Below are positions 18,173 through 59,112 of a stretch of 60,088 nucleotides of DNA, piece after piece. Location: contig JAAUYU010000020.1 in assembly GCA_014804965.1 (NCBI GenBank), forward strand, positions 60,704 through 120,791, given 5' to 3'. The stretch's first letter is position 1; each line of letters begins with the position of its first letter. Position numbers and translations under genes: made by a program. The notes beneath the pieces were generated by a model that saw only the letters and a list, made by a program, of their open reading frames with translations, was not told the origin of the DNA and searched no databases. The DNA is from Desulfovibrio sp. Its GTDB lineage: Bacteria > Desulfobacterota > Desulfovibrionia > Desulfovibrionales > Desulfovibrionaceae.

Positions 18173-18351
18173 TGCCCGGAACGGCCCCGCTTACGCGGCC
18201 GCCCCGGGGGAAGGCAGAACCAGCCCCGCACGATTCATAGGCATCTATCGGAGGATGCGCCAAAAGGATTAGGCCCAAAGCGCGCCGCGCGCAAGAGGCT
18301 GTCCGGGGCGTCGGCGCCAGCGCTGGTATCCGCATTGGCTTTGTTACACTT
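18173..18351. other. Intergenic stretch between cheV promoter and repeat copy 1
   Basis: No gene, RNA or clear signal seen here beyond the flanking promoter and repeat. Confidence 0.5.
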
Positions 18352-18588
18352 TTGAGTTGGTGGTGCGCCTGTGCTGCATCTGTAATGCCGAAATTATCCG
18401 TCAAAAACAGCCTTTTTGCTGCTTGCTGCGTCAGAGAAAAATTTCCTTGGTCGAGTACCTGAGTACACTCCCTGCGGAAATTTTTATCTTCCTTGCAAGC
18501 AGCAAAAAATCTTATTTTTTAGGATTCTTCCGGCACGAGCACCCGTCTTCCGCTTCGCTCCAGACGGTTCTAAGGAAGATTCATCAAC
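18352..18588 (-). repeat. Nested-hairpin intergenic element, copy 1
   Basis: Full copy in minus orientation, ending 3 bp from the radical SAM stop codon. Outer arms of 14 bp, perfect (18413-18426 and 18495-18508, core GCTGCTTGC/GCAAGCAGC). Inner arms pair AAAAATTTCC with GGAAATTTTT around a near-palindrome GTACTCAGGTAC. A CCGTCT/AGACGG-type hairpin lies at the end facing the gene. Short peptides predicted in it are by-products of the repeat. See copies at 51990, 57848 and 58843. Confidence 0.85.
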
Positions 18589-18591
18589 TGC

Positions 18592-19974
18592 TCAGGATAA
18601 CCTATCCTCGGATTTCTCCTCCGGCATCTTCCACTCTCCCGGGAGCGGCGCAGTGATTTCCGCCCGGTCGCCCAGCCAGGGGTTGAAATAACCGTAACGG
18701 AGCCAGGGGCAGAGTGCGCGCAACCGCTTCATGAAGGCCGCAAGGCCCATGCCGGCCCCGCCCGCCGCGGCCGCGGCGTTCTCTGCCGCCTCGCCGCCCG
18801 TCATCAGCTCCCAGTACCATTCGGGGGCGATATTGAGGTTGCGCCACTCGATCATGCTCACGCCGTTTTCGCCCACAAGGCGCGCCAGAGCCGTGAGCTC
18901 GGCCTCGGTGTCGGTGATGCCGGGAAAAAAGAGCAGGTTGAGCGACACAAAGACGCCGTGCCGCCGCGCCGTGCGGATGGATTCCGCCACGTCGGAAAAA
19001 TCGTAGTCCGTGGGGCGGTAATAGCGGCGATAGAGTTCGGGCCGCGCGCTGTTGAGGCTCACGCGCATACTGGTGAGCCCGGCTTCGGCGAGCCGGGCCA
19101 CGGCCTCGGGCCGTGAAGCGTTGGTGTTGCAGTTGACCGTGCCGTGCCCGGTCCAGTCCGCGGGATCGGCCGCGCCGCGGAAAAGGCGCACGCTCTCCAC
19201 GAGCAGGTCCGGGTTCAGCAGCGGGTCGCCCTCGCAGCCCTGACCGAAGGAATAGATGGGCGTGGCCTGCTCGCGGCGCGCGTGCACGGCCATGACCTCG
19301 GCGATCTCCTCCGGCGTGGGCGTGAAGGCGAGGCGACATTGCGGCGTCACCTGAAGCGGTGAATCCGCGCCCTTGGCGGAGATGCAGCCCACGCAGCGGG
19401 CATTGCAGGCGCGCGAGCTCGGCAGCGGCGCCTCATAGCGGCCCAGGGCGAAATTGCGCGCCGCCGGGCAGGAATAGCGGCGCACACAATTTTCGATGAT
19501 ATGGCGGATGAGGCGATTTTTCGGATGCGCGCGCAGGAGCGCTGCCGCCTCGCGCTCGATGCGGCCGGGCCTGATATGGCGGAACTGCTGGCGCGGGTCG
19601 TCGTCCACCCTGCGGGCGCAGACCCAGAAGCGGCCTTTCGCAAAGCCCACGGCCCCGTAGGCGAAAAGCGGCAGCATGGGCGCGCCCTCCTCCGTCACAT
19701 AGGCCGGGTGCGCGGAAAGGGTGTGCGCGGGGGCGGCGAAGGCCGCCACGGCGAGGCCGTCCACGGCCTCCATGCGGCCGCTTTGCGGGTCAAGGCCCAC
19801 GGCGCGCCTGCCCGGCAGGAGGAAGAGCTCGCTCTCCTCCGGGAGCGGCATGAGCTCGTCCGTGCGCGGCAGGCCCCACTCCGCCCCGCGGCGGGAGACC
19901 ATGAGGAGGTCAGGGGCGTCCACGATGTTGCCCCGTTCATCGGCCATGACAAGACGCGGCGCAAGCCGGCCCAT
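18592..19974 (-). CDS. Radical SAM protein of unknown substrate
   Basis: 460 residues from MGRLAPRLVMADERG, chosen for the AAGGAGG just upstream. The N-terminal ~180 residues are a beta-rich domain I do not recognise. The 4Fe-4S motif CNARCVGC (C190, C194, C197) has the CxxxCxxC spacing, followed by GQGCEGDPLLNPDLL and NTNASRPEAVARLAEAGL, a typical SAM-binding barrel. There is no C-terminal twitch or SPASM cysteine cluster. It stands alone with its own promoter. Substrate and pathway are unknown. Confidence 0.85.
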   Translation of the reverse strand: MGRLAPRLVMADERGNIVDAPDLLMVSRRGAEWGLPRTDELMPLPEESELFLLPGRRAVGLDPQSGRMEAVDGLAVAAFAAPAHTLSAHPAYVTEEGAPMLPLFAYGAVGFAKGRFWVCARRVDDDPRQQFRHIRPGRIEREAAALLRAHPKNRLIRHIIENCVRRYSCPAARNFALGRYEAPLPSSRACNARCVGCISAKGADSPLQVTPQCRLAFTPTPEEIAEVMAVHARREQATPIYSFGQGCEGDPLLNPDLLVESVRLFRGAADPADWTGHGTVNCNTNASRPEAVARLAEAGLTSMRVSLNSARPELYRRYYRPTDYDFSDVAESIRTARRHGVFVSLNLLFFPGITDTEAELTALARLVGENGVSMIEWRNLNIAPEWYWELMTGGEAAENAAAAAGGAGMGLAAFMKRLRALCPWLRYGYFNPWLGDRAEITAPLPGEWKMPEEKSEDRLS

Positions 19975-51951: not shown

Positions 51952-51989
51952 GCGACAGGCTGAGCTTCCTTATCAGTCCCGGAGAAAGA

Positions 51990-52208
51990 GGTATTCCATA
52001 TCCCGTCTGGAGCGTAGCGGAAGACGGGTGCAGGTGCCGGAAGAATCCTAAAAAATAAGATTTTTTGGTTCCGGCAAGGAAGAAAAATAATTTCCGAAGG
52101 GAGTGTACTCAAGTACTCGACCGAGGAAATTTTTTTCTGACGCAGCCGGAACCAAAAAGGCTGTTTTTGACGGATAATTTCGGCATTGCATGGACAGCAA
52201 GCACAAGC
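51990..52208 (+). repeat. Nested-hairpin intergenic element, copy 2
   Basis: Full copy, plus orientation, between dapF and dapL. Outer arms 52062-52075 and 52145-52158 pair perfectly over 14 bp (core GGTTCCGGC/GCCGGAACC, different from copies 1 and 3 but still complementary). Inner arms AATTTCC/GGAAATT, loop GTACTCAAGTAC. Overlapping alternative hairpin CAGCC...GGCTG-TTTTT at 52143-52167. Confidence 0.85.
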
Positions 52209-52286
52209 TGCCCTCCCACCTGTACAACAGCACAAGCGGCATTAACTCTCCCCCAACGCGGCAGCGCCGCAGCAAGCGAGGCTTCC

Positions 52287-57768: not shown

Positions 57769-57847
57769 CGTAGACTTGTTGCGGCGCGGGGCTCCGGTCC
57801 CAAGTCCCTCACAACACCACACCGGGTAGGTCATGCGCCCCAATACA

Positions 57848-58078
57848 GTTAACATTTGTTCCTTGATCCCGTCTGGAGCGAAGCGAAAGACGGGTGCTCG
57901 TGCCGGAAGAATCCTAAAAAATAAGATTTTTTGCTGCTTGCAAGGAAGATAAAAATTTTCGCAGGGAGTGTACTTAAGTACTCGACCAAGAAAATTTTTC
58001 TCTGACGCAGCAAGCAGCAAAAAGGCTGTTTTTGACGGATAATTTCGGCGTTACAGAGGCAGCACAGGCACAACATCA
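57848..58078 (+). repeat. Nested-hairpin intergenic element, copy 3
   Basis: Full copy, plus orientation, between the WcbI-like gene and the flavoprotein. Outer arms 57928-57941 and 58010-58023 (14 bp perfect, core GCTGCTTGC/GCAAGCAGC). Inner arms AAAAATTTTC/GAAAATTTTT (10 bp), loop GTACTTAAGTAC, a perfect palindrome. CCCGTCT...AGACGGG hairpin at the left end (57868-57893). Confidence 0.85.
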
Positions 58079-58118
58079 ACACAAAAGCATACCCAACCCA
58101 ACGGCAAAGGAGACCGCC

Positions 58119-58811: not shown

Positions 58812-58842
58812 ATAGTCACGTTGCGGAAGGCCGTTGACAGAT

Positions 58843-59061
58843 ATTCCTTCAATCCGTCTGGAGCGAAGCGAAAGACGGGTGCTGGTGCCGAAAGAATCCT
58901 AAAAAATAAGATTTTTAGGTTCCGGCAAGGAAGAAAAATAATTTCCGAAGGGAGTGTACTTAAGTACTCGACCTAGGAAATTTTTTTCTGACGCAGCCAG
59001 AACCTAAAAGGCTGTTTTTGACGGATAATTTCGGCATTACCCGCGCAGCACAGACGCGCAA
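58843..59061 (+). repeat. Nested-hairpin intergenic element, copy 4
   Basis: Full copy, plus orientation, behind the terminator. Outer arms 58913-58926 and 58996-59009 pair at 13 of 14 positions; a T/A pair here (TTTTAGG/CCTAAAA) replaces the T-run pairing of copy 2. Inner arms AATTTCC/GGAAATT, loop GTACTTAAGTAC. The right end lies 52 bp from the convergent flavoprotein stop. Confidence 0.85.
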
Positions 59062-59112
59062 CAGCCCGCCACGGCTTTCTTCGATCTCCCCTGCTTCAGC
59101 GTACCCTGCGGC

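Follow-up and report, generated by a model that had tools for sequence, protein, structure and literature searches.

The intergenic repeats described here are read, with about even confidence, as being for the most part old insertions of a non-autonomous miniature transposon, the central hairpin of which would be a shared structural module, likely to be active as folded single-stranded DNA and a candidate for binding by a factor. The copies differ between species in their presence at given sites, conserve a fold, share their core with elements of different frames, and turn over the sequences of their stems.

Copies in the window and in its genome

The window is the whole stretch of 60,088 nucleotides of Desulfovibrio sp. 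DNA that was analysed, and the assembly of its genome (G000) is 93% complete. The first-pass annotation had reported four copies of an element in the window, at 18352-18588 (inverted), 51990-52208, 57848-58078 and 58843-59061. All four are present and align with one another, but these coordinates span only the inner part of a unit of ~271 bp, which also has a hairpin of its own on the 5' side and inverted ends that are degenerate (Table 1), and the number of copies is far from complete, the genome containing 76 matches (55 of them exact) to the 3' end pattern AAAAGGCTGTTTTTGACGGATAATTTCGGC at ≤3 mismatches, with 0 for the reversed-pattern control. The 5' block was found 80 times in G000, 68 times exactly. 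Copy 2 is flanked by two genes that we tentatively name dapF and dapL. G061, a near relative (the genome of NZ_JAAVBE010000027.1, Desulfovibrio sp. Mgla_MAG_3-bin_11) that was reached via DapL, holds 53 copies of the pattern.

In total, 120 complete copies were gathered from three genomes (63 from G000, 44 from G061 and 13 from G004). Alignment A2 comprises 88 of them, of which 87 are distinct in sequence; two 149-nt copies as well as the B-bearing and shortened ones were omitted. The placement of the copies is mostly intergenic. Several G000 contigs (e.g. L029, L078, L090, L098 and L106) end inside an element, which makes the copy numbers minimum values; these palindromes have probably fragmented the assembly. 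No match to the element was found in the phage, plasmid and viral collections searched, and an origin from a phage or plasmid was dropped on this ground. The first-pass annotation knew of no named family that fits, and Rfam gave no match to the whole window at curated cut-offs, nor to five representative loci at E ≤ 1.

Table 1. Positions of the element copies and of their parts in the window
Feature	Position	Strand	Remarks
Copy 1, whole 271-bp element	18337..18607	-	hairpin core 18387-18536, which served as core reference; ends GGATAGGTTATCC / GTGTAACAAAGCC, 4 mismatches vs consensus ends
Copy 2, predicted whole element	51963..52234	+	core 52034-52184; ends placed via fixed offsets, not directly seen
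H1 (5' hairpin) of copy 2	52003..52027	+	loop GCGTAGC
Copy 3, predicted whole element	57829..58099	+	core 57900-58049; ends placed by offset
Covarying outer stem arms of copy 3	57932..58019	+	enclosing the inner stem, the internal loop CAAGGA/GACGCA and the apex GGGAGTGTACTTAAGTACTCGACC
Copy 4, whole element	58814..59075	+	core 58885-59035; right end placed by reading, the offset rule giving 59085

Anatomy of the 271-bp unit

From the outside inward, the unit consists of inverted ends, the hairpin H1, a 32-nt and a 30-nt block, the outer stem, an internal loop, the inner stem and an apex. The terminal inverted repeats expected of a MITE are present as the degenerate inverted ends GGTTNTGTTATAC and GTATAACAAAGCC, which lie 271 bp apart in the best copies and are strongly degenerate in most. 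The loop of H1 reads GCGNAGC in 111 of 118 copies, N being A in 90, C in 10, T in 8 and G in 3 of them, and in 6 of the 118 copies H1 is replaced by another module, C. The 32-nt and 30-nt blocks pair imperfectly with each other and are nearly invariant. The hairpin core measures 150 nt and is nearly free of indels, with one extra base at one place in 15 of the 88 short copies and a core one base shorter in two copies. By reading of the alignments, the apex GGGAGTGTACTYARGTACTCGACC carries tandem G.A mismatches. The terminal blocks, the internal loop CAAGGA/GACGCA and the apex are near-invariant, whereas the stems are variable; conservation is highest in the core and lowest at the element ends.

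A further module, B, of 120 bp, is inserted in either arm, mostly before AAGG, giving core lengths of 150, 270 or 390. B has 29 matches in G000, each of them no more than 232 nt from an element end and on the same strand. Because B was found only at element copies and no Y1 gene was found, its insertion as an IS200/IS605-type element was rejected. Whole or partial B modules occupy other places in L080 and L091. In G028, L116-L119 are longer elements, some copies of which have an additional outer inverted repeat (AGACGCATCTAA/TTAGATGCGTCT); there, a longer B lies within the 5' block and C lies at the apex, so that the module positions differ from those in G000.

Covariation of the stems in near copies

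The sequences of the outer arms given by the first-pass annotation are exact, namely GCTGCTTGC/GCAAGCAGC in copies 1 and 3 and GGTTCCGGC/GCCGGAACC in copy 2, as are those of the inner stem (TTTTC/GAAAA in copy 3 and TTTCC/GGAAA in copies 1, 2 and 4) and the extra A/T pair and single mismatch of copy 4, the latter being C.A. The statement that the arms stay complementary applies in full to 61 of the 88 copies, in which all ten arm pairs match; of the 27 with imperfect arms, 24 show a single mismatch and/or an N, and the remaining 3 carry at least two mismatches.

Among the 88 copies, 99.2% of 4421 cells are paired, compared with 94.2% after shuffling and at most 54% after sliding, and none of the 500 shuffles and six slides of the copies that served as controls attains the observed pairing. 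Cells changed on both sides number 206, against 50.5 +/- 8.1 in shuffles. These both-side changes affect 12 of 51 pairs, mainly in the outer stem (8 of its 10 arm pairs), together with one inner-stem pair. Columns 62 and 88, a pair within the internal loop, covary though their pairing is non-standard, being mostly A.G or C.A and rarely T-A. The stem letters thus vary mostly in matched pairs, showing that shape is conserved rather than sequence. Relative to dinucleotide shuffles, the fold of copy 3 has z-scores of -6.5 (+ strand) and -3.6 (- strand).

The fully paired arms are of 23 types, which can be joined by a tree of 22 edges, 19 of them representing a single paired step, and all four combinations were seen in 56 of 78 site pairs. 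Distinct hairpins account for 84 of the 88 copies and none is repeated within any genome, which indicates that recent conversion of whole hairpins is not dominant; as the sole source of stem turnover, such gene conversion was rejected for the same reason.

Insertion, target duplication and turnover of sites

The copies are insertions, and their insertion sites vary between species. When the element ends were set at constant offsets and the flanking 8-mers of the same copy were compared with those of different copies, the mean best 8-mer match was 5.0, against 4.51 +/- 0.08 when permuted (117 copies; 0 of 2000), pointing to a target duplication of 8 bp. At least 7 of 8 positions are duplicated in 10 copies, whereas 1.9 were expected, and three duplications (L066, L213 and L239) are exact at the predicted offset; most ends are heavily decayed, and only these ten copies, about two of them by chance, retain 7 or 8 of the 8 positions. 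At L097, comparison with the empty G061 site revealed a 6-bp repeat. Decay of the ends and duplications around an undecayed core is the opposite of what an idle MITE should show.

In a synteny sample of 398 kb from G061, 17 G000 sites have both flanks syntenic, of which 4 carry an intact copy, 3 a remnant and 10 no visible trace; the remnant at the L099 site is without the hairpin. As for the copies in the window, the syntenic G061 site of copy 1 is empty, and that of copy 4 is likewise unoccupied, window positions 58812-59093 being absent from L126 (G061). The site of copy 2 is filled in L126 with a copy differing in its arms, the core being absent in L125, and the site of copy 3 is also filled in G061, again with differing arms. 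At the copy-3 site of a relative (L125, 7080-7302), a decayed H1 is followed by the C module and then by the contig end.

No longer element sharing these ends came to light, the end pattern having 9 matches, each of which adjoins a copy. No match in G000 was obtained for the Y1 transposase (PF01797; RAYT), the search for which was positive in 5 of 14 named control genomes, or for the ISL3 transposase (PF01610). An ISL3 parentage, an idea drawn from the 8-bp duplication and the GG ends, was rejected, because no such transposase was found in G000 and the readable ends in relatives do not match. For palindromic repeats that lack a transposase, the core offers something specific to look for in the search for their missing mover.

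Stems at orthologous sites

Thirteen orthologous sites were compared, ten on the basis of both flanks and three (L002/L245, L021/L213 and L086/L240) on the right flank alone. In 12 of the 13 comparisons the 5' arms are not identical; the mean difference is 2.8 of 10 positions, compared with 3.4 for random pairs, and 19 of the 26 arms at these sites are fully paired. Over the 13 sites, 28% of the positions of the 5' arms have diverged, compared with 8.9% in the flanks of nine of the pairs, which include coding DNA. Near flanks, like the variants of H1, resemble each other more than in random pairs, save where C replaces H1. In L215/L264 the outer stem is identical and the inner stem is altered on both sides.

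Among the near copies, G.T (15) is not significantly preferred over A.C (9; p = 0.31), and the double changes comprise 10 transitions and 16 transversions, resembling the flanks (760:1048), whereas compensation via G.U would favour transitions. Part of the stem turnover looks like an exchange of arm types, with positions 36 and 38 linked, and part looks like independent paired change.

The core in other frames and genera

Of 61 genomes examined by a DNA similarity search, 11 gave matches to the family, and all 11 belong to one genus. Covariance models, as suggested in the first-pass annotation for its four copies, were built and run on the genomes of relatives, where they recovered the core in 33 of 101 relatives and in 77 of 297 genomes of the order. 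The model of the 88 copies gave the former at E ≤ 1e-3 (19 genomes in the genus, the window's own included), and a core-only model gave the latter at E ≤ 1e-5, the genomes representing 18 of 55 genera; since the searches scored at most 30 (101 relatives) and at most 13 (order) candidates per genome, the copy numbers are minimum values. The core-only model reached E values of 1e-16 to 1e-19 in several of the family's other genera. Weaker matches outside the family (E ~1e-6 to 1e-12), those read keeping the loop and outer stem, are likely, though not certain, to be members. Structure models trace the family beyond the one genus in which the DNA similarity search found it.

In most matches from related species, CAAGGA...GACGCA and the apex are retained, whereas the stems are different. 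In 53 of them, aligned by fitting to the model, which favours pairing (51 are distinct, and five are antisense reads of other matches), pairing was 92.0%, compared with 67.6% after shuffling and at most 49% after sliding, and both sides vary in 41 of the 51 pairs. In a cross-genus alignment of 98 core matches, which were chosen by us (as were the 79 sources), include the training rows and were fitted to the model, pairing was 94.5%, compared with 76.7% after shuffling, and 24 of 28 pairs change on both sides. With covariation in the 88 near copies, in these 53 matches and in these 98, selection on the fold or repair between arms, the two readings first offered for the element, proved an apt pair. 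In genomes of another genus (g24), the outer stem varies by locus and yet stays paired: in 13 of 20 copies, retained after the removal of same-locus duplicates, a copy's own arms scored 11.7, whereas arms taken from other copies scored 6.5 (0 of 2000). L396, L398, L406 and L409, from several species, apparently share with L395 the same gene end bearing the core, and the outer arms differ on both sides in G177 (L395).

The frames surrounding the core are diverse. In G080, 62 instances of the ends AGGGTCTGTTAACA / AGGGCCTGTTAACG were counted, made up of 28 inward pairs (26 at 133 bp, one at 122 and one at 134) and six single ends, none of which forms a pair of IS length; the element is ~147 bp, and at least 13 model matches in G080 sit on its ends, the core having been read in four copies. 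G080 also has copies in a GTGCCGG frame. In L419 and L444 the ends read ACAGTGTCGTCACGAG and CTAG flanks the element on either side. In G066, the core lies within 356-bp tandem arrays. Two such arrays on L355 (2169-3245 and 11129-12510) contain 3.0 and 3.9 copies of the 356-bp unit and 3 and 4 model matches, respectively, are 94% alike and lie ~8 kb apart, and two hairpins in G025 (C13) are likewise 356 bp apart. In L393 (1299-1407) and L444 (1289-1396), a second, weaker match lies near the main one on the opposite strand, with the apex GCAGGAGTGGACTCTTCCGTCCTCGACTGTT in L393; these are perhaps another frame of the same core.

Among 51 other-frame copies, which come from 16 genomes of the window's genus and of others, 40 have an opposite-strand ORF (at least 120 codons) that terminates no more than 16 nt from the right edge, whereas on the left an ORF end lies within 22 nt in 2 of 51. 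Because stems of free sequence lie next to stop codons, an integron attC site was also considered. The ORF calls are crude, some copies are orthologues, and without a distance limit (up to 89 nt) the counts become 48 right and 12 left of 51. These 51 were taken from 77 matches, after the removal of antisense matches, second matches per locus, GTGTTGG-frame copies, loci of other families, and L382, L386, L392 and L432, the last four without a reading of their frames.

Evaluation of alternative explanations

The dozens of paralogous and orthologous copies form a natural experiment in which selection on an RNA, selection on a DNA hairpin and arm-to-arm repair can be set against one another. An RNA element, i.e. 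a hairpin transcribed with the neighbouring gene that acts in its 3' UTR on stability, processing or attenuation and is selected as an RNA fold, is a possible but rather doubtful explanation. Where the flanking genes are co-directional, copies of the G000 type lie along them in 57 cases and against them in 21 (p = 5.6e-5), as a 3' UTR element might, no more than 8 of 82 cases yielded an intrinsic terminator separating the element from the gene upstream, and the abutment of other-frame copies on ORF ends in one orientation has the same bearing, as do the tandem G.A mismatches. The hairpin itself was rejected as an intrinsic terminator, in view of these 8 separate terminators and of the lack, by our reading, of a T-run on its 3' side; the latter point, like the lack of an Rfam match, also tells against an RNA role in general. 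Across genera, G.T exceeds A.C in a strand-specific manner, as an RNA fold would also produce, by 234 to 30, and by 74 to 18 (p = 3e-9) when the pairs in which G.T is commonest are left out, in an alignment fitted by an RNA model; alignment A3, without its five antisense rows, gives 102 to 79 (p = 0.10). Against this stand the near copies, which show no clear preference for G.T and have transversions among their double changes as often as the flanks do, and the orientation of the structured strand, which in the G000 type is usually the sense strand and in other frames usually the antisense one. For these reasons we lean towards a folded DNA strand, which we consider about twice as probable as RNA, and we infer that the strand acts as DNA. 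The H1 loop GCGNAGC, a sequence that forms an extra-stable DNA mini-hairpin, and the GNA loops, likewise a feature of DNA mini-hairpins, were also counted for DNA.

Mutational coupling without selection on the fold, in which the arms are corrected by template switching or by conversion from copy to copy, appears unlikely as the whole explanation. Double changes at or above the flank rate, the site pairs with all four combinations, hybrid arms such as those of L019, and the hairpin-less remnant at the L099 site are all in accord with it, but the mismatched loops (the tandem G.A and CAAGGA/GACGCA) survive across species, whereas arm correction should erase such mismatches, and the blocks outside the stems are nearly invariant. 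An ordinary MITE burst, i.e. a single recent family with an inherited palindrome of no further meaning, would account for the inverted ends, the target duplication and the short, mostly intergenic units; it is very improbable, as conservation is lowest at the ends and highest in the core, which is moreover found again between different ends in other genera, where the compensated changes of the 98-match alignment were found.

Under the preferred reading, that of a miniature transposon with a folded-strand hairpin, each copy would mostly be an old insertion of ~271 bp with degenerate inverted ends and an 8-bp target duplication, carrying a central hairpin module common to several miniature elements with differing ends in Desulfovibrionaceae. 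The feature kept would be the folded shape of one strand, namely the one with the tandem G.A mismatches and the GNA loop; the internal loop, apex and terminal blocks would be fixed in sequence, and the stems would be free in sequence and fixed in length and pairing. By analogy with the proposal for REPINs, the active form is most likely a single-stranded DNA hairpin, to which a transposition or host factor would bind via the invariant loops. Exchange or copying, between arms as well as between copies, may account for part of the coupled changes of the arms. Several observations speak against this reading: neither of the two transposases looked for nor a longer element with these ends was found in G000, G.T exceeds A.C across genera, copies of the G000 type tend to lie along co-directional genes, and the ends are heavily decayed. 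A broader formulation can be offered tentatively, in which the core is a family-wide, portable hairpin domain with near-free stems that miniature transposons unrelated to one another carry in as many as 18 of the 55 genera sampled from the order; it would be recognised by a protein as folded single-stranded DNA, have its arms rewritten jointly and, in several frames, strongly prefer the stop-codon end of genes.

Relation to known repeats

ERIC and Correia elements have ends and hosts other than those found here, and we know of no report of one core in several frames among them. The placement of one core inside different frames is without a precedent known to us. ERIC and Correia elements, which are named in PMC3049150, resemble the present element as intergenic MITE-like repeats. 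No description of the present element was found in the open-access literature searched (PMC2267715 and PMC10969869 among it). The GTAG/CGTC-tagged REPs are small palindromic repeats of 20-40 bp in which the tag is an unpaired end, and the CGTC type is said to be without a dedicated transposase (PMC3733652); in contrast, CGTC lies within the H1 stem here, and 'Desulf' does not occur in the text of that paper.

The nearest known kinds are REPINs and BOX elements. The BOX elements of the pneumococcus are modular small interspersed repeats, in which the optional boxB is predicted to fold mostly alone (PMC3049150). Module B, as an optional repeated internal module at fixed places, corresponds to this arrangement, but B is 120 bp here, has mostly two fixed arm positions and was found in G000 only inside the element, the stems of which vary with compensation. 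REPINs are REP doublets that form hairpins, and the conserved outer blocks, fixed length and compensated hairpin stems that PMC3116915 ascribes to them are all found in the present element. However, REPINs are doublets of short REPs associated with RAYTs, whereas the present element is ~271 bp and no RAYT/Y1 gene was found in G000, and unlike REPINs it possesses inverted ends with an 8-bp duplication, the modules B and C, and an internal loop that is common to elements with differing ends.
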